This document shows, piece after piece, positions 1-57,035 of a DNA stretch of 64,000 nt. The DNA lies in assembly GCA_019914995.1 (NCBI GenBank), contig CM034127.1:11532001-11596000 (forward strand). Reading direction: 5' to 3'. Made by a program: the position numbers and the translations under genes. This DNA comes from Acanthochlamys bracteata. Taxonomy: Eukaryota; Streptophyta; Magnoliopsida; Pandanales; Velloziaceae. How positions within the stretch are numbered: position 1 is the stretch's first letter; each line of letters starts with the position of its first letter. The notes under the pieces were generated by a model, which was given only the letters and a program-made list of their open reading frames with translations, was not told the DNA's origin and did not search any database.

Positions 1-3000
1 TCATGTAGTAGATAAGAACAAGCGACTGAACAGTGAATTCGTTACGCATTAAAAGCTACATGAACAAGTGGCCAGAATTCCATGATGGTCTGAACAAAAG
101 TGAAGTATTGCTTATGATCATTAATAGTTTCTTTTGAAGTTCTGAAGTTTGGTAACAAACTTTTTCGTTTTTCAGAAAATGATAAAAAAAAATTAAAAGG
201 TTATGACAAAAATGCATGTAATACATATGGTTTTACAACTTTTAACAAAAGATGTTATTATTTGGAAAACGTTACCAAAACATAAACGCACATAACAAAG
301 CATCTATCTAGTAACTAGTCCAATACTTTTTTTTTGAACTAGCTAAACCACTAACGCAAAAGAAAAGAAAACAGAAACGCAACAAAAAAAGAAAAAGCAA
401 AAAAAGAAGACGACCAATGCACTAACAATAATAATAAGTAAATAAAAGATGGCATTAATCTTGTTTCCTTTTATAGTTGCATGCTCATTAGTCTTGATTT
501 CCGGAAAGATTCAAAAGTAGCTTTTTTTTTTCCCTATCTTCAAAACCATTAACAATTAATAATCTAATCACACCATTTTGATTCCGGTTATAATAAATCA
601 ATCTAACTTAGCATTACTTAATAATAACCTCCAAATTTGCACAAGTCTGATACTTTTGATTTATTGACTTTGTTATTAAAAGAAAAAATAAAGAGAAGAA
701 AAGCAAAGTAGGGGAATGATTTCTGCTCATGTTCTACTGCTCCATCCATTCTTTTTCCCTTATCTCATCGTTTAGGATTAGATTGGTGGGCCAGCGGAAC
801 CTATACGGCTGCGCCTCCCCGGGCCGGCAGCGCGTGCGCCAATGCCGGCCCCTCACCCACACAACAATCAACACACACATAAAACAGACTCTCCCTTTCT
901 TTCTTCTCAAACTTTCTACTCTTTATGCATTATAAAATCACTATATAAATTAATAATTAATTATAATATAATAAGTTAAATATATATTTATATTAAAATA
1001 TCAAATGTTAAGGAAGATGAATCATCAATCAACAAATTGAAAAGCCAACAGTTAAAAATTTTAAAACATCTTCTAAAAAATGAAAGGAAAAAAAAATTAA
1101 ACATTAATAAAAAGATAGAAAGACAACCATTCGAAAGTTCAAAATTCTTATTGGGGCATTATATATATGAATAAAAAATATTTGCTTGAAATATGATAAA
1201 AGATTAATCACATCATTCACAATATCAAATGTGAGAGATAAAAATAAAATATTCTAATAAAAGTTTTCATTTAAAGTGTAATACATGAGTTTATAATTAT
1301 TTTGATTTAGTAATTTTTTAAGACTAATTTGTCTTCTCGTAGAGCTTTTTTATTTTTCTTTTCACATAAATCTCTTATTTTTATATTTATCTTGCTCTTG
1401 TCTCAATTTTAATATTATTTACATAAAATTTTTGAATATATTTTGTGTTTTCGCTACGTCTATCGATAACCGAACATACTTTATATCTTTCAACACTCTA
1501 TTCTGTGCTCTTTTTATTTTGGAATTCCGTATATAACACACTACTAGTCTATTAGACAGATGCATAAATTGGTTGTTTTGAATGTTTCTATATTTTATTT
1601 TTATAATAATGCATTGTCCCTAATAAATTACATCCTACTAATATAGTTGAATAAAGATACATTTTTCTTTCTTATAAGTACTCTCGTATTCTCATAATCT
1701 TAAGATTCACTCCTTTCAAAGAATAATGCATTTATTCTTTGCTGTCATGACCACTTGATTGAATCACGACCGTTGGATTGTTTGATCCATTAATTTGAAA
1801 ATGAAGTACGCATAAAAAAAAGAGATGCCTATATTCTCTTTCAGATATGTTGTGTATGTCGAAATATAGTTCATACACATGCAAAGAAGCATGAGGTATA
1901 TACGCCTTACGTGTAATTTATACAAGTGCAACTATAATGTATATTTCTGTCACCTTCATGTTTTAACTCTCGTAACACATTTTTAAACAGTGTGAAGAAG
2001 GTTAAATTAATTTAGTTATCCACAGTGTCTCCCATGTGATTCCATCTTCATACAACCGACCATACAGCTAAGCTAATCATGATTGTTCTTCAACATAAAC
2101 ATTATATAGATGCAACACTTGATTATCAAATTTTTTTTTGTTCTCGCCCTAAGTTTGTCTTGCTTCAACGAGCATGCATTCCTTCCATAACTCATCAACT
2201 CCTTTGTTGATCATATGGGGTTTTTCAAATCAATCCCTTCATTCATGCTATTGTTGTTGTTGCTGTTAAAAATTTTTGGTATTGCATGTTGTTGTTGTCA
2301 GTAGTACTATTATACAAGGACAAGACAAAACCAGGCCTTTCCTTCTCCCAAAGAAAAGGAATTGCTTGCTTGGATTATTGTGGCAATTATTCATGCACAT
2401 GTATGTACATGCTTCAGCTTCAAAAACTTTATCTAAGTAGGTACTTGAACCTAGCAACCTACAGAGTATGAATGAATCAATGATGAATACGCACGAAACT
2501 TTCTTAGATATAACAAATTATAAAAAATAAAATAAAAGTTTTGGTATTGTAGAAGTGTTTTTTAATCGGTTTTTTGTTTTTGTTATATAATGTTAGGTGA
2601 TGACCGTGATGTATGACACGTATGCATTATTACAGATGAATTGAACCAATAATTCATGGCATCAACCTTTCCATAGGTCATTCAGAAAATTAACAGTCTT
2701 TTTTCTTCAACATTCAATTTAAGAGATTCTCCATATGTCAATGCAAAGTTTATTCATTCATTCAAATGATGATATGTAGCTTTTCAATACCTCAAAAAGC
2801 CATCAGAAAAAAAAGGAAAGCAGGTCTTCTGAACTATACAGATGTAAAAAAAAGTTATTCCTTCTTGCTTTATTTTCATTCATTTCATTTAACTGCATAT
2901 ATCTCTCAGTAGTAATGAAGACCTTTTATAACTGAACTCATTGAGTATTTAATCAGTTTCTGTTTTCATATATATACTTGATAGTAACATACTGAAAAAA

Positions 3001-4100
3001 TCAGTACTCTGAACTTTCTTTTTGTATGACATCAATTATCATCAAGCGTATCAACTGCATCATATCATTGAGAAATTCAAACTCTTCCTAATGTTTTGGT
3101 GTTGATGTTGAAGTGTCACTGGTAGAATACATCGACATAAAAGTATCAAACAAGTCCTTATAAGACAACCTACTTAATGTTTTTTGTCGTATAGGCGAAG
3201 TACACTGAACAATAAACTGAGGTAGATAACTAAATAGATAGATATTCATTCACTCACCTGTCGTCTTCCTTCCATAATCCATGCCTCTTCCACAAGCATG
3301 ACTTTAATTTGCCCACAAAGCAGCGAGGACCCAGCTGATGTCCTTATTCTTCAAATTCCAGCTAGATAGGGATGACCTGCAACCAAAATCTAGTTATGTG
3401 TATTCTAACACAAATTTAAAACATGCATACATACATTATATTCATCAAACTATCCCGAGTGCATGAGTTGTATAGAAGAATCTTTCCAAGTCTTTCACGA
3501 AATAAAAGTATAATACAACATGCCAATGGTCTCTTAATAAATGAATAAGGGACCAGTTCAGGATTCACCATTAAAAGCTAGAAACTGATTGGTTTGTAGT
3601 TCACGTATAATAATCTGATCGGATACATACTATAACAGTACAGTACTTTAGACAAACTTGAAGGCAGAGAGACAATATAGATTTGTGGAGAGACAACTGG
3701 TGTAAAAGATAAAAGAATTTCCAGGGCACATGTGATTAAGCATGGCTTTGTTAGCTGTCTGGTTTCATCATGATGATGATTCTTTTGTGAAGTAGTGCTC
3801 TTCTTATAAAATTTTTTTTAGTACAGGGTGATAGAATAAGTGGTCTAACCTTTGTTTTCGCTTTAATATAATACTGACCTCTGGAGCATCTTTGCCTTCC
3901 TACCCCATACATCATCATCATACTACTCTGAAACTGCATTGGACGAGAGACTAGGATTTGTTTGGCACGACTAGAGAGAGCTCAATATAATATTACGGTG
4001 AGAGTCTGTGAAGGAGAGAATCACCCTGGATGGATGAATGAGTTTGGGAATTTGGAGAGCTGTCTGCTTTGTCCAAGGAAACCGTGCCCTGCGAGGATGA
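1..4100. other. Gene-poor 5' region
   Basis: AT-rich sequence with many homopolymer runs and short spurious ORFs. I find no open stretch with intron signals or recognisable protein similarity on either strand. The one compositional outlier is a short GC-rich block near 780-860, described separately. The last few hundred bases are the promoter of the EAR-motif gene that follows. Confidence 0.6.
821..851. repeat. GC-rich perfect inverted repeat (hairpin)
   Basis: GGGCCGGCA at 821-829 is the exact reverse complement of TGCCGGCCC at 843-851, separated by a 13-nt GC-rich loop. It sits in an island of about 80 bases that is far more GC-rich than the surrounding AT-rich DNA. Its function is unknown; it could be a regulatory element or an inserted fragment. 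Confidence 0.7.
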
Positions 4101-24599: not shown

Positions 24600-25380
24600 A
24601 GCGTTTGGTTCGGCTTTTTCCTTAAGCTTTTTTTAAAATTTTTATTTTACATTTTAATATATATTTTATAATTATTAAAAAATTTATTTAAAAATTTTTA
24701 AAATATAAAACATTTCTACATAATAAAATCTTTTTATTATATATTTTTATTTTTTGAAGTAAAAATAGAACTTATTTTTTAAAAAAATAAAAATATCTTT
24801 CATTTTAAAAAAATTTTATTTTATACGTAATTTCAAATGCACATACGTACGTGTTTATCTAAATTGTGAACTGAATTTTCAAAAATAAAATTTAAATATA
24901 AATATTTAAAAATATAGTTTAAAAATAAATTTAATTTATATATTTATTTTTATTAAAAATAAATTAAAATTTTAAAAAATTAAACTTATTTTATTTTAAA
25001 ATAAATTTAAAAGTAAAATTTTTAATAAATTAATGAATATAAAACTCAGGTGAACACGCCTTAAGTAGCACTAAAGCCACAACAACCAAAAAGGACAAAG
25101 AAAAACGAAAGCAAATACAATACTGCATTCTCGGAAAGTGTTTGAAATTACTTATAAAAATAAAATTTTTCTAAATAAAAATAATTTTATCTATTTTGAA
25201 AAAATAAATTCTATTTTTTTATTTTAAAAAAAATATATATAATACAAAAATCTCATTATATAAAATATTTTTACACTTTTTAAATTTTTAAATAAATTTT
25301 CTAAATATTTATAAAATATATATTAAAAAACGTAAAATAAAAAAATTAAAAAAAAATGCAATTCCAAACGATCCCTCAAT
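24600..25380. repeat. Cluster of AT-rich fold-back elements
   Basis: Two or three adjacent blocks of almost pure A/T with self-complementary ends. One runs from GCGTTTGGTTCGG (24601) to AATTTCAAATGC (24840). A middle block ends GGTGAACACGCC (25062). A third runs from GTGTTTGAAATTAC (25140) to GCAATTCCAAACGATCC (25376). The third resembles the island at 60122-60362. They look like MITEs of one loose family; target-site duplications are not clear. Confidence 0.5.
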
Positions 25381-41146: not shown

Positions 41147-44100
41147 ATGGTTATCAAACAACTAACAAGAACAAAACGAAGAAAAGCAACAATAACAGCA
41201 ACGGCAGATGGAGAAGAGTTGATTTCAGCGCACAACGTTAGAGTGGTAGGCGGAGATGGTACAGCAATCGTGCTAGCTCATGGTTTCGGCACAGACCAAT
41301 CTGTATGGAAGCACCTTCTTCCTCACTTGATTGAAGATGGTTACCGTGTTGTTCTCTTCGATAACATGGGAGCAGGACCAACTAACCCGGACTACTTCGA
41401 CTTCGATCGGTACGCTACGATTCGTGGGTACGCGCTCGATCTGCTTGATATACTACATGTGTTGCAGATTGGTTCTTGTATCTTTGTTGGTCACTCTGTT
41501 TCTGCTGTTGTTGGTGCTCTCGCTTCCATTTCAAGACCTGATTTGTTCTCTAAGATCGTTATGATCTCTGCCTCACCAAGGTTAGTGACTTATTTCCTAG
41601 TTCTCTCCTTTGTTGTTTGATATGTGGTCGGAATTTTGTTGGTTAAATTGATTTCGGGGATGTTGGTATTTGGAAATGAAAAAGATTTTATTTTTTTGGG
41701 AGTGGAAGTTGTGATTGATAAAAAATAACTGAAAATCTAAGGTGTCTACCTGTTACTTGAGTTCAGTTATTAGTTAAGAACATTTTCATTGTATTCTCTT
41801 ATCAAGTTCAGATGTGAAGCACCTATCTATTTCTTGGGGCAACCAGGCTTTCGCTCAGATATAATTCCTTTTTCGAAAACGATTGCCTTATAATTTAAAC
41901 TAAAACTTGGGCATCTTGTTGTACACGAAAATTTTTGGGACTAATTTGCTTTATTTCCTTCGTTTAATTTTATTTTTTCTAACTTTGGTTTAAGATTTTG
42001 TGTTTTGATATTTGTTCTTTATTAACCTTCTGGGTTTTTTGTTGTAGTTGCCGACGGAATCACCTTTCAGACAAGTGATAGTTGGTATTTGTAGTCGCCT
42101 TTTTATTTGGTAGATTCACCCAAAGACCCTTCTTTCCTTTTTCCCCCTACCATCTCCAAAGTTGTGAATTTTGTTTGTTTGTTTGCTTCTTTTTTTTTTT
42201 GGGTTAAATTGCCTCACGAAGTCGCTCATTGTCTGGATATATCCTTTTCTGAGGAAGCAATTTCTGGTTCTAGATATTTGAACTGGCATGCATTTTGGAA
42301 ATTGTTTGGCATCTAAATTTGGCAGTTTCCGTTTAACTGATTGACAATATGATGTTTAGTTTGAATTCTTAGCTGAAACAATTCATGGACTAATATATTT
42401 GAGCAATGGGAGTTTCCTTTTTGATATCTGTGTTCCTAGTTGTGCCTATTCTGCTTATAAGACCCACCCACAAATTTGATATCTAAATCATGAACTTGAG
42501 AATTATTGTGGAAAAAGCTGCTAATCTGCTTCTACAACAAATTGTGGAGTCTGCTGAGTTCATGCTTTTAATTACTTTTAGAACGTAGTTATGGTAGAGG
42601 ATGAACAACGGTCTTGTTTAGCTAAGTGTTGAAGTTGAAAAGACTTAGTTTGCTGTATGTGCTTACCAGAATGGATCTGGAAGAAATAAGGAGCAAGAGA
42701 AAGTGGAAACTGATTGTCCCAAAAGAAATGGGAACTGAGATTGTTGGTGAGGCCCATGTAGAGCTCTTCCTTGAGCTAAAGTGTTTTAAAGCAGTTGGAA
42801 ACTGATTGTTTACAAAAAAGCAGGAAACTTAGATGGTTGGGGAGGCCCATGTATTACTGTATCTTAAGCTAAAGTGTCGGTTCCTCGTCCTACCTGTCAT
42901 GGATCTTCTTAGTGTCAAGGGTGTGGTTGAGGTTTGATCTATTTGCTTTACAAAGACGGATATTTCATCATGAACCACTTATTAACTTGGAAAAATCTGT
43001 AGAGAGGTGATTTGAAAGACTCATTTTGTTGCTCTTTCTCATAGCGAAAGTAATATTAATCTTAACAAGATATGGACTTGGCAAATAATAGGTGTATTGA
43101 TAGTTCATACCTCCAGTGACATATCACTAATCACACCCAGAGTTCCTTTGCATGGTCAAGTTTCAGGACCGGTGCTTCTAAAATGATAAATGTGCTGTTG
43201 CTTTCATGTTACAGCCAAGAGTGCTTACCTAATGCAAATATGTATGCCATAATATACAATTGTGTGGAAAGGAGTGCACACTTGTCTGCACACTTGGAGG
43301 CAGGAGTAAAATTTTCTTTTTTTTTTTCAGATTGGGGGCCTGAATAATAGTAATTTCCTGCAAAAGGCCTGTACTTGCGTAACGATTAATTACCAGGGTC
43401 AAAATTGGTAAGTACCCTCAAAATGATTACGTGAACCTCTTCTTGCAGATTTAGGAAGAGTTGGTATCGATACACTTTAGTAAGACCACATTTGTCTAAT
43501 TGTGATGAACTGAATGAAGTGTGTAGCACAGTGTAGTCAGGTCTAAACAAACTGGCAGAATGCTGTCAATGTCCAACATGACGACTTGAGAAGAATTTTC
43601 ATATTGCAGTCTTGATGTTCATTAAATTGGGTAATCTGGTAGAAGGATAAAAAAGTGGAGGAATAGGCTCAATCAACTAGTGAATTGCGATGAATATGAT
43701 CTTGTTATTGCTTATTTACAAATTGCTTGATATCTTATAACTTGTGGTCTCTGGTTTTATTGCTTCTCACGCTATTTATAGTTCTGTCTTTTAAATGGTG
43801 GTAATGATCTCCTGTTTCACAAAGATATACTTGTAGGTTAGGTTATATGATTGACTTAAACAAAAGATTGCTGGGATAAAGGTTTGTAAGGGAAAAACAT
43901 ATTTCAGATAGTTGGGCTGATAATAATATCAACTTATTGTCTATACATTCAGATACTTGAATGATGTGGACTATTTTGGAGGCTTCGAACAAGAGGAACT
44001 GGACCAGCTTTTTGATGCCATGAAGGATAACTATAAGGCATGGGTCTCTGGTTTTGCACCATTGTGCGTCGGAGCGGACATGGAATCAGTTGCAGTCCAA

Positions 44101-44406
44101 GAATTCAGTCGGACATTATTCAACATTCGACCTGACATTGCCTTAAGCGTGTTGCAGATGATCTTCCAGAGTGATGTAAGGGAGATACTCCCTTTAGTTA
44201 CCGTCCCTTGTCATATCCTCCAGAGCACAAAGGACTTAGCAGTGCCTGTTGTGGTTTCTGAGTACCTGCACAGGAACCTCGGGGGAGAGTCTATTGTTGA
44301 AGTGATGTCTTCCGATGGACACCTACCGCAACTGAGTTCTCCAGACGTAGTCATTCCAGTTGCACTCCGGCATATCCGCTATGACATTGCTGTCTCCGGT
44401 CCTTAA
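41147..44406 (+). CDS. KAI2: KAI2-like alpha/beta hydrolase receptor
   Basis: Two exons, 41147-41580 and 43953-44406, are split by a 2.4-kb intron after ISASPR, the usual KAI2/D14 intron site. The product is 295 residues. The fold markers are [36 protein letters not shown] and the nucleophile elbow GHSVSA. The triad is complete: S117, D239 in STKDLAVP and H268 in [11 protein letters not shown]2 proteins bind karrikins and an endogenous butenolide, then recruit MAX2 and SMAX1-type repressors. The triad numbers sit 22 above those of Arabidopsis KAI2 (S95, D217, H246), so the protein carries an extra basic N terminus, [20 protein letters not shown]. Substitutions such as [10 protein letters not shown] before the elbow suggest a divergent paralogue. 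The start could also lie elsewhere, but no closer in-frame ATG precedes the conserved AHNVRVVG. Confidence 0.92.
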
Positions 44407-45527
44407 GTTCATGCCATCAAAGTGCAGCAACTCAGTAACCATGGCCCTGCTGCAGCCTGCATTTGTTATCTTAGCATATATATAACTCCTTTCGGTCGCT
44501 ACTTAAGTAGGTTTTTGTGGCAAGAGATATTAGATTATAACCTGCATTCAGAATAATGACCGTGTCATGATCATGCCTAGTATGTAATTCTGCTATAACA
44601 CTGTTGTTAGTAAGTGAAGTAAATAATAGCTCCAACCCATTCTAATTAAATTATCTTCTGTTATGAGTTATGACTTTCTTCTTATCTCTGTTTAGAAAAG
44701 TCATGGCTTATTTTTTATTCTAGTGACTGAGACTTTGGTCCATTTTCTTGGTTTAGTTCTTGATGTTTCTTTTCCTTTTTCTAGTAATGAAATGAGGAAA
44801 TTCGATGAAGCTCAAGTGCTCAACTTGAAACTCGAAATTTGTTGATTTTGGTATTCTCTGACTTAATGATCAATTTACTACTAGTACTTGTTTATTAACC
44901 GGTTAGCAAATTCATTAGTAACTTGTTTATTAATACTGGTTAGTAAATTCATTAGCAAGTCAAGTTCTTCTTCTTTCTCTCTTTGCTGAGTCCAAGTCTT
45001 TGATTTTACAACCTTAAAATAGCTTATCTTACTCGTGCTTATTTATAAATCATCTCGCTGTAAAACCAACCAAAACCTTGCAATACAACTTCACCTCAAA
45101 AAAAGAAAGAAAAAAGAAAAAGAAAAACCTCACTGTTTTTCCTTTCATGGCATTCTCACAAGCTCTTGACAAGAAATATGGTTCTCAATTTTCTCCTTAT
45201 GCAGCTCTCTAACGCCAAGCCGTCGCAACTAAAACTTGCAGCAGCATTGCCTTCGGACGTGTTTCAAACGCTCGTAATTTCACTTTTTTTTGTCAGATTT
45301 TGAGTTTCGAACAGTTCATATATTTTAATTACATAAAAAATTCAGAACTCTATTTTTACATACGGACTTCAGTTCCAACTTTCTTATTTGCACATTTTCT
45401 AATACAACTATATTTTTTAATTTTTAACACACTTCTAAAATCTATCAAAATATAAATACTAAACTCTATTTTTATTTTTATTTTTTATTTTTACGAAATT
45501 CAGTGGGCATTTGAAATACGCCTTTCT
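44407..45527. other. Intergenic, no gene seen
   Basis: The 3' flank of the KAI2-like gene, then AT-rich DNA. An ATG at 45148 opens a 21-codon frame (MAFSQALDKKYG) that may be a remnant of the upstream part of the zinc-finger pseudogene, but it shows no conserved motif. Confidence 0.5.
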
Positions 45528-45927
45528 TTGAAGAACCGTCCACACAAGTGTACAATATGCAACAAAGCATTCTCATCTTACCAAGCACTTGGTGGGCACA
45601 AGGCAAGCCACGAACTTCCTCTCAAGCGAAGAAGCTGGACTTGTGCAAATCCTAGTGCTAGTAGTACTATGAGTTCTGCAGCAGCTATGTATAGTGGTTC
45701 TGCAGGGGCAACTTTGCACCAGTGCTCGGTTTGTAACCCGTTGTTTTTCATCGGGACAAACTCTTGGAGGGCACAAGAGATGCCATTACTAAGAGTGTGG
45801 CGTTTCGTTGGAGGAGACTGCAATGAGAGATTTTCACCTCAACAGGTTGCCGAAGATGGTGGAGGATGAGGAAGAAGAAGATGAAGTGCAGAGCCCTCTT
45901 CCTGTCGATAAGAAACTTAGGATTTGA
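45528..45927 (+). pseudogene. C1-2i (ZAT-type) C2H2 zinc-finger pseudogene
   Basis: The first finger is intact: HKCTICNKAFSSYQALGGH with KASH, including the plant QALGGH core. The second begins HQCSVCN, but the frame then shifts; the +1 frame continues FSSGQTLGGHKRCHY and meets an in-frame TAA. Past that stop the same frame reads MRDFHLNRLPK and ends EVQSPLPVDKKLRI, matching the EAR-like and C-terminal parts of ZAT proteins. The N-terminal third, with start codon and nuclear signal, is missing. ZAT proteins are stress-response repressors. This copy has one frameshift, one stop and a 5' truncation, so it should not make a full product. Confidence 0.8.
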
Positions 45928-46764
45928 CTTGAATTTTCTTTCTTTTTCTTACCTCAATTATTTATTCGATTGATTGGTTTATTGGTTCTCTTATGTTTTT
46001 TAAACATTTGATCTTTTTTTTTTGCTACTTTAATATTTGTTCATTCAATGACTGTAATTTTTAGCTAGCTTCTAACATTCAAGAAGTTTTTTATGTGAAA
46101 GAACCACATCAAAATGCAAAAGCTGGCTCCATTCAATGCTCTTTTTGCTTGGAAGAACTGACGCGGAAGCTCAAATTAAAGTACTGCTTTCACATAAATC
46201 CCTGCATAACCATTTATGTGAAAACATATTATTACAACTGCAGCTTCATTGCCATAACCATAAGTTGATTTCATAAAGAAAATCAGAAAATTCATTAGTA
46301 GGATCAGAAGCTTTCTTCGAATTATTCCTTTATTGAATGAAAGGTTTGCTTGACAGATCAAGAACATGTTTCAGGAAACGAGATGAATTATTACAAATAG
46401 AATCCAAGGCATCTATGAGTTAAATTACAGGAAGATAGTGCTGCCTGAAGATATATCGGTTGTACATACTCGTTCCTTGGGCATTCAGCTGAATGCCCGA
46501 GGAACGAGTATGTACAACCGATATATCTTCAGGCAGCACAGGCTGCTCAAGAAACAATGCACTACCGACACTTAAAAACATAGCACTAGTAACAAATATA
46601 TATCTGCTTTGCATTGATAGTCAATTTCAGTCCTTGAAATGAAAAGAACAAGATAGACAGGCATAAAACCTTCCATGAGATGCAAGGTTCCTGAGTTTTA
46701 AAACATTCAACTCTGATACTTGAGTAGCCATTAGCAAATTCCTTGTCCAGAAAACACTAGTATG
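45928..46764. other. Intergenic, contains a long palindrome
   Basis: Unique AT-rich sequence apart from the 102-bp palindrome at 46438-46539, listed separately. No gene seen. Confidence 0.5.
46438..46539. repeat. Near-perfect 102-bp palindrome
   Basis: The 51-base arms are exact reverse complements except for one T/G mismatch (46478 against 46499), and there is no spacer: the centre is CAGCTG at 46486-46491. The left arm begins GTGCTGCCTGAAGATATATC and the right arm ends with its complement at 46539. Complementarity stops abruptly at both edges. As RNA it would form a hairpin of about 49 base pairs with a minimal loop. Confidence 0.95.
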
Positions 46765-47430
46765 CTATTGTGAAGCATGGTCCTTCAGATTATTCTTCAC
46801 GGATGTAAGAAGCCTTCTCTTATCACCATAATCCTTCTTATCATACTCAATCCCTTGGAAGGTATCTTGGACATTCGATACTGACTACCAAAGCCCCAAC
46901 CAAGACCAAACCCTATTCCGCAGCCTCCACCTGTTACTAGCATGTATCATTCAGAAAGTACACTAAATTAATCTTTTAGAGAGAAGAGTTGATTACTTTA
47001 AAGAGGACCTACGCCGAGACCAAGAGATGTGCAGAGGCGTCCCTGGAATTGCAGGAGAGGATTAGCAAGACAGAGAGTAAATACTTCAGTACAAAATTAC
47101 CAGAGCCCAGTCTAACAAAAGTTGAAAGGCTGAGTAAATCAGAATGCTTTGAGCAGGACTATTGAGCCAAAATGACGAGATGTAAATACCAAGCAGTCAT
47201 AAGAACATCCAGCTGAAAAAACTTAACTGACAAAACGGATTACAAAAATGCTTTACCTCCAAATCCCCATCCTAATCCAAAGCCACAACTGACCAAATCC
47301 TGAAAAATCAAAAGAGTAGACAACACAAGTAGTTAAAGAGGCCTTCATAGGATATTTCATGGAATTCATGCCAAAACTGACTAGGTAAAGATATACAAAA
47401 GCCAACACCAGTTCCGGTAAATACCTAACT
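46765..47430 (-). pseudogene. TGD5-like glycine-rich protein pseudogene
   Basis: Minus-strand pieces match the small glycine-rich TGD5 protein of chloroplast lipid import, recalled from memory: TGTGVGF near 47420-47400, then CGFGLGWGFG at 47299-47257, a 34-nt exon at 47042-47009 encoding LGLGVG, and an exon from 46930 with GGCGIGFGLGWGFGSQYR. A C-terminal stretch FQGIEYDKKDYGDKRRLL ends at a TAG at 46765-46767. The pieces do not share one frame. The 47257 exon is 2 nt shorter than expected, the 34-nt exon has one extra base, and the last exon lacks one base before FQGIEY, with a TAG met in the shifted frame. Good splice sites bound most pieces. It is probably a decayed gene; sequencing errors are the alternative. 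Confidence 0.6.
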
Positions 47431-49036
47431 AACTGCACAAGTCGACCAACCAAAAGATTTTCTAGTCAAATATGAAAATGGGAAGCCAGATGAATAGAAC
47501 CCAGGATAAATACATGCTTATTCCTTCAATTCACAAAACAACCCCAATCTCAACCCAAACTACAACGAAGCCTTTATTTCAAAGTATGGATATGTGCACA
47601 AGCACCTTTGCTCATCATTAAGCTCTACCAAAACCATATCTCTTATGCTTGGAAACAGTATAATTTGAAAATAGCTATTAATCATCTTACATCAAATTAT
47701 ACCAGGAAGCAACTGAAGCTATGAATTTTCTCAGTGGCCATTATGCTTGAACACTTGCAGAGATCAAAGAGTTACCCAAAACAACCTCAACTAATGATAA
47801 CATCTACTCCAAATTCACGTTTAATAAGTCGTACACAAGTAAAATGAGAGAAACATAAGTCATATTAAGCCTCCAAATTAGTGTAGACTCGAATTAGTAG
47901 CAGAAAAATCTAAAGATAATGATTAAGTGAAAAATGAGTTAGCTAATTCAAAATTAAGCCAACAATTCATTTAGAGTTAGACCAAATAGAACATTAACTT
48001 AGTGAGCTTAATTACCCACATATCTTTATAGTTTTATACGGCCTCGATGCTAGACTAGACATGTAGTTATATATGAATGATGCTAACTTTTAAATATTGG
48101 TTAATTAGTCGACTTCAAGCCAATTGCAGAGCTTATTATCTAACTCACATTATACCACTAAAGAATCAAAATCTTCAATGAATTACTTCTGCAATCAATC
48201 CATTTTACGTACCTAATTTTATGGTTAAAGCAGCTCGGTTAAGAGGCTTGGTTAAAACCACATCCGCAGATTCGTCCGAAAAGATTAGTGAGAGAGAAGT
48301 CTTAACTGAGAAGGATGTAGAAATATGTAATGTAAACCACTCAACCCAAGTTCAATGCTTTGGATCATGCAGTTTAGTTGTAGATATCATCGAGATAGAG
48401 AGAGAGGTAACAGAGAGAGAACAAAACTGAAGAAAATTTCACGGAGATTGATCGACGAAATTGAAGGCGAGAAGTTGATAGGATGGAGGTTGAAGAAGTT
48501 GAACTGTTGAAGTACGCTATCCGGTATGAGTCTGGTCTCGGTTGCAATTGGTTCCATCGAATTGATTACGAATTTCCACATACGACTCATCAATAGATGA
48601 CCTTTTTTCCACCGGAATTTTATAACGTACACGTTCAGCTGTTATTTACATACATTAATTCAATGACAACTACACCAAATTTTGTATAAGCCAATTTTAT
48701 AAGAATAAAATTCAATTAAAAATAAAATTTATAAAATAACATTCAAACTGATAATTCGAATATGTGATATAAAATCTAATTTAACTTTCGATAAAAATAT
48801 AATTTAGTCTAAACATTTTAAATAATAATTTAAATACTTTAACTTATAGAACTCAAAATCTGTAAAAATTAGACTTTTTTGAATTGAAATATTGCCAGAG
48901 CCCCGACAACCACACAAACTTGAGAAAAACTGAAAGATAATGGACTTCTTCAGACGTACTTGCCATCACCCACTTCACAGATTAACTCATTCATTTCCAC
49001 TTCTAATTGTTAATCGTTCTCTTGGCTGCCGCTTAT
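47431..49036. other. Intergenic, possible upstream exon of the TGD5-like relic
   Basis: A strong minus-strand donor (TTAG/GTACGT) near 48212 may end the untranslated first exon of the TGD5-like gene, whose leader would run up to about 48.5 kb. Otherwise AT-rich, with no coding frame supported. The right end is the 5' flank of the first 5-beta-reductase copy. Confidence 0.4.
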
Positions 49037-49074
49037 ATGAGTTGGTGTGGGCCGGCGCCGGTGGTGCCGCTAAG
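49037..49074 (+). pseudogene. Broken first exon of the 5-beta-reductase copy 1
   Basis: ATGAGTTGGTG-TGGGCC... aligns with the intact first exon of copy 2 (55736-55774, MSWWWAGAVGAAK), but has 38 instead of 39 nt because one base of the TGGTGGTGG run is gone. The donor after AAG reads CTAATC instead of GTAATC, so both frame and splice site are lost. The following intron-like sequence still aligns with the copy-2 intron and ends at CCAG before AAGATGATCG. Confidence 0.85.
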
Positions 49075-49132
49075 CTAATCTTCATCAACCAATTCCGTTA
49101 TTGCTTTCTCTATTTATGTTGTGCATGTTTGA

Positions 49133-50314
<1,182 letters not shown>

Positions 50315-51391
50315 AAGTTAGAACTAATAAGCTCGGTCTTTACTTTTCTTTGGAAGGTGAACTCTTTGCAGCTTTGATATGCTTGTACGTATGTCGTGTG
50401 TAATGTTTTATGTTGGCATGTACATGTCGCAGCAGTAAAGACAATAATGTGCATCCGCTCTGTATTCCCGTATCCAATAATAATACGGACAAGTTACAGA
50501 TATTCAAAACAAATAGATAGAAGTGCTAATTTAGATTGATAGATTGGTTTCAAATCGAATCATTTAATAATCGGATCAAATTCTTTTAATCTTAATCGAA
50601 CTCATGAATATATACGGATCAATTTGTCAATTTTAACCTAACTTATTTAATAAATTGATCAAATTCAGATCGAACCATTTATAATTAATATTTTAAATTT
50701 AAAATTTATACTTTTAAACTTGAGTGAAATTATAAATTTAGTTGATGTTCTTGGTATGATGAGTATTCATCAAGATATGCAATCCTTACTATTTTTTCGA
50801 TTCTTAAAATGTTCTAAAGAACTTTTGTATTTTTATTTTTTGAAAATATATTGTGACAGCTAAAATTTTATAATTATAAAGAAATAGTAATACTTTCGAT
50901 AGAAATTTTAACAAAACATAGATAGCTGATAAAATTTTTTTATAAAATATAAATTCGTCATTAAAAAAATACTTATATAGTAATATTTTCGATAATATTA
51001 TAATTCTTATTTTATATTAGAATAATAAGACATGAAGAAAATGACTGATTATAAATACAATATAATTTAATAATTTATAAATTATTATTATTAATTTTTT
51101 TATTACAAAATTTTCTTATAATGTAAAGAAAAATTACAAAAGACTCAAGATATAGCAATTCGGATTTGTGGGTCAATTTCGGACCGATCCGAGTTGACTC
51201 ATTTAAAAATTGGATCAAATTCGTTCAATCCTAATCAAGTTCATATATTTGTATGTGTCAAAATTTTTAATCCTAATCCTAATTAAATAGATCTGTTTTG
51301 AATTAAAATTTTTGATCGAATCATATATTGTCACCTCTACAAACAGGTGAGATGTTGGTGGGAGGTAAGATATTGTTCCAAAATTAAAGGG
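50315..51391. other. Intergenic, AT-rich
   Basis: The 3' flank of copy 1, then AT-rich DNA with repeated words such as GGATCAAATTC and CGAATCAT. These recur near 50560-50680 and 51180-51320 and suggest an old, degenerate repeat. It ends with the target-site copy AAGGG at 51387-51391 next to the LTR. Confidence 0.45.

Positions 51392-55735: not shown

Positions 55736-57035
<1,300 letters not shown>

Follow-up and report, generated by a model that had tools for sequence, protein, structure and literature searches.

A near-perfect palindrome without a spacer in Acanthochlamys bracteata, probably a young inverted duplication made by template switching

The 64-kb window analysed here (the whole stretch, contig C2:11532001-11596000, plant DNA by its sequence) contains at positions 46438-46539 a palindrome of 102 bp in which two 51-nt arms meet with 0 nt between them. 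It might be asked how such a structure came to stand in ordinary plant DNA, which of its arms is the older one, and whether it does anything. Arm 1 (46438-46488) and arm 2 (46489-46539) are complementary at 50 of 51 pairs, the single unpaired position being T46478 with its partner G46499. The next pairs outwards are not Watson-Crick (46437/46540 A/A, 46436/46541 T/G, 46435/46542 A/G), so that homology ends abruptly at both edges. An earlier sequence-only reading had described a 102-bp palindrome without a spacer, with one mismatched pair and a sudden end of homology, and all of this was borne out. By chance about 7e-23 structures with at least 50 of 51 pairs and zero spacer would be expected in 64 kb.

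A scan for palindromes (net arm score of at least 20, spacer of at most 20) through 44 sequence sets, comprising 344,432 bases and many of them overlapping, returned 46438-46539 alone. The 35 sets from outside the window yielded none; their 253,352 bases (in which three short loci overlap locus L023, see below) are a small sample of the 195.5 Mb of the assembly (195,520,810 bases, 557 contigs) and give only a loose upper limit on palindrome rarity. Whole-genome DNA searches with the palindrome found no second place, near copies only being detectable in this way: the same searches also missed a 70%-identical single arm in a homeologous region, which means that diverged copies escape detection. 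A stretch of 28 bases across the centre had no exact match in viral contigs.

This homeologous region lies on contig C1 of the same genome (C1:12258198-12261645, compared here as locus L023) and was detected via the neighbouring genes, not via the flanks of the palindrome. In the whole-genome search one neighbouring-gene query of 431 bases matched C1 with 80% identity over its positions 31-431, and a second matched with 70-79% in four pieces. When window positions 42746-50316 were compared with L023, all 11 BLAST pieces were on the same strand and 10 of them in the same order; the only piece out of order was short and lay at the edge of the block. Between the common flanks the homeolog has, in place, one arm only, in the orientation of arm 1. 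The left flank is conserved (46276-46455; 68%, E 1.5e-11 by local BLAST) and this match reaches into arm 1. The right flank (46540-46764), between the palindrome and the 3' coding end of a gene for a glycine-rich protein, is collinear with the homeolog. A genome search with the left flank alone returned only itself at E values up to 10, and with the right flank alone the homeolog was missed. Since the left flank aligns at 68% by local BLAST, the genome search is evidently blind to such divergence. Over aligned noncoding sites the two regions are about 72% identical (228 of 316 equal, 88 different), and the comparison with this one outgroup places the exact edges of the insertion described below by small score margins.

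Arm 1 (plus strand) matches L023:3677-3720 in the same orientation with 70% identity over 47 columns. When shuffled arms were substituted at the homeolog alignment, not one in 500 reached the score of arm 1, while the score of arm 2 was equalled or exceeded by 165 of the 500. Removals of 40-60 bases were then tried, each aligned to the homeolog under three scoring schemes. The alignment scored 74 with nothing removed, 73 without arm 1 and 109 without arm 2. Removing 46491-46539 gave 119, the highest score of the removals tried, and this was the best removal in all three schemes (119 versus 115 for the runner-up in the first, 59.5 versus 57.5 and 76 versus 71 in the others). It leaves a gapless join of GCATTCAGCT to AGGCTGCTCAA against GCATTCGGCTAGTTTGTTCAA in the homeolog. 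The right end of this segment is the right end of the palindrome, and its left end lies inside a self-complementary AGCT at the axis (46487-46490; GGCT in the homeolog). A single net insertion of 49 bp is thus the best-fitting account of the whole difference between the two sequences, and no loss of flanking bases needs to be assumed. The arms are best explained if arm 2 (minus strand) is the newer of the two, an inverted copy of an older arm 1; arm 2 as the ancestral arm was rejected on the removal scores and the shuffled-arm test. An open frame running across the palindrome was discounted, arm 2 being on this account noncoding sequence that was recently copied in inverted form.

At the variable site the homeolog reads T. 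The T/G change therefore probably lies in arm 2, the new arm, its polarity being read from one homeolog. For the same reason deamination of a CpG in arm 1, turning C into T, was not retained as an explanation. Of the two earlier suggestions for the mismatch, a mutation or an RNA-level wobble, the first appears to apply. In RNA the pair would be a U.G wobble on the plus strand and an A.C mismatch on the minus strand. With 1 difference in 51 sites between the arms, against 88 in 316 noncoding sites between the homeologs, the duplication should postdate the homeolog split, unless later homogenisation has made the arms more alike. Arm divergence amounts to about 0.06 of homeolog divergence, with Poisson limits (about 0.001 to 0.3) too wide to date the event. 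The proposal of a very young inverted duplication is therefore supported by a one-armed homeolog collinear with both flanks and by arms that diverge far less than the homeologs do.

The explanation for this arrangement probably lies in a one-step, short-range template switch, a reading to which we assign a probability of about 0.8. During synthesis of the strand that reads GGGCATTCAGCT the polymerase would leave its template at the self-complementary AGCT, the putative switch point. It would then copy the strand of opposite sense backwards for about 49 nt, as far as 46438, and resume on its first template at AGGCTGCTC without the loss of a base. This would leave the old 51-nt arm with its reverse complement directly after it, and one transition, at the time of copying or later, would account for the T/G pair. 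Replication template switching as the physical process, together with its strand and direction, is inferred from the footprint, which could also result from fold-back synthesis in the repair of a break. A loop-less intrastrand turn is sterically awkward, and a switch to the opposite strand is therefore favoured. One point against a template switch is that the return point shows no microhomology. As the homeolog has GGCT, the self-complementary site need not predate the event.

Passages of PMC8794818 describe the same footprint for new microRNA stems and RNA genes in mammals, and passages of PMC7954356 describe short-range template switches in great apes. The palindrome shares with these four-point-model switches, including the birth of MIR633-type stems, a reverse-complement copy of tens of bases that adjoins its source, and a near-perfect stem formed in one step as judged against an outgroup with a single arm. 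Here, too, the ancestor-like outgroup has a single copy, and one pair of switches with defined edges and a gapless join suffices, although the margins are small. The present locus differs in being from a plant, in having zero spacer and in lacking a known RNA gene; a homeolog within the one genome serves as its outgroup, whereas in the cases treated in those passages this is a related species. In loose literature searches on plant inverted repeats the term template switch did not occur in the papers listed, which is no proof of absence. Perfect inverted repeats in many genomes are the subject of PMC13155455, whose passages contain no plant rate for comparison.

Palindromes without a spacer are difficult to sequence, and chimeras formed during copying can create them, so it might be suspected that the second arm exists in the assembly only. 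The homeolog indeed shows the form that the locus would take if this arm were absent, and a difference of frame in the neighbouring glycine-rich gene (see below) could be a small assembly error, so that local base accuracy is not assured. Yet the insertion is short and internal, unlike the fold-backs of missed adapters, which are long and terminal. On either side of it the sequence runs on collinearly with the homeolog, and the two arms are not identical, one base being different. The fold-back artefact raised by the sequence-only reading is therefore disfavoured, and we regard it as unlikely. A short palindromic foldback beside genes would also be the shape of a miniature inverted-repeat transposable element (MITE) or of the foldback terminus of such an element. 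The palindrome differs from MITEs in having no further near copy in the genome (diverged, dispersed copies would escape the search), no target-site duplication of at least 2 bp and no wholly empty site, since the homeolog keeps arm 1 as ordinary collinear sequence; one arm is thus ancestral local sequence, and a transposable origin is extremely improbable.

The genes on either side bear on what the palindrome might do. To its right, on the minus strand, lies the sequence coding for the C-terminal part of a small glycine-rich protein (46765-46946), which is presumably TGD5-like, after Arabidopsis TGD5, and whose C-terminus is conserved with the homeolog. Two candidate stop codons can be read, one at 46797-46799 in the frame of the glycine-rich stretch (46797-46946) and one at 46765-46767 in the frame of the homeolog-conserved C-terminus (46765-46884). 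As assembled these two parts are in different frames, while in the C1 homeolog they share one; a small assembly error, a difference in splicing or decay of the window copy may be responsible. In the sense of the gene the palindrome lies 257 or 225 nt past these candidate stops, respectively, and from its position it may be part of the 3' UTR. In or near the same gene is a dispersed repeat (about 47855-48107), which accounts for 28 of the 33 matches of the second neighbouring-gene query, these being 65-78% identical and scattered over many contigs; it is not covered by the pieces matching the C1 homeolog.

To the left of the palindrome is a disrupted copy of a C2H2 zinc-finger gene, presumably ZAT-like, on the plus strand (45064-45927, with 45456-45927 as the adjoining part). 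It is split by about 265 extra bases (about 45255-45529), the second finger being read in a different frame. The C1 homeolog (L023, about 2590-3140) has an open frame, and the duplicate in the window appears to be decaying. With both neighbours possibly in decay, constraint on the region might be weak and the palindrome might have been allowed to persist. Elsewhere in the window, 49169-50314 and 55836-57035 are two genes on the same strand with PRISE-like Rossmann domains, presumably of the progesterone 5-beta-reductase/iridoid synthase type and possibly tandem duplicates. A cluster of AT-rich imperfect inverted repeats (24628-25354; 76-83% complementary, up to 153 nt) is possibly an AT-rich foldback element.

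RNA transcribed across the palindrome would, according to the folding model, form a near-perfect 51-bp hairpin. The predicted energy is -97.1 kcal/mol for the plus strand (z -15.6) and -94.1 kcal/mol for the minus strand (z -16.4). The homeologous stretch folds in an ordinary manner (z +0.79), 159 of 200 shuffles folding at least as well. A stem of this strength, placed shortly past a candidate stop codon, raises the question of whether the palindrome could be a young small-RNA locus, a proto-MIRNA or siRNA hairpin formed by inverted duplication and co-transcribed with the 3' end of the glycine-rich gene. A precedent is available in Arabidopsis, where, according to passages of PMC1790633, young MIRNA and siRNA loci arise by inverted duplication; passages of PMC3237417 likewise indicate that plant inverted duplications can found such loci. 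The foldback with strongly paired arms expected of a plant MIRNA is present. An Rfam scan of the 64-kb window gave no family at the gathering score, although a match to a curated family is not required of young loci. Three stretches that between them cover the arm, searched through the genome with up to three mismatches, had 10, 0 and 2 other matches against 8, 0 and 2 for reversed-pattern controls, and sites in trans were thus not above background. Because the source is the adjacent noncoding sequence, small RNAs from the arms would be expected to match their own locus only. The idea of a proto-miRNA or siRNA hairpin, also put forward from the sequence, is accordingly plausible as far as structure goes, while neither an Rfam match nor an excess of near-matches over the controls was obtained. 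We consider such a locus quite improbable, and most likely the palindrome serves no selected function.

A narrower version would have a small-RNA hairpin at its birth: one template switch in the 3' UTR of the glycine-rich gene, and a stem yielding cis-acting small RNAs on one of the two homeologs. This is a speculative reading to which we give little credence. According to a passage of PMC1790633, DCL1 acts to a limited extent only on RNA that is perfectly paired, and the first products would then be expected to be heterogeneous siRNAs. The near-perfect foldback resembles those of plant MIRNA and siRNA loci such as MIR163, which the same passages trace to recent inverted duplication. Loci of the MIR163 type have a coding-gene family as their source, in contrast to the adjacent noncoding source found here, where no target in trans was found and any small-RNA role is putative.

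On the reading that we prefer, a template switch, the palindrome looks like a fresh example of an ordinary and already known kind of mutation. It would be a clean natural case in which a single copying error made a long, near-perfect hairpin out of ordinary plant sequence, and hairpins of this kind are the raw material for small-RNA loci. The one-armed homeolog in the same genome provides a built-in control for any effect of the hairpin on expression or methylation. Should the small-RNA reading be true, only one of the two homeologous genes would be affected in cis, and the unchanged homeolog would serve as its control.
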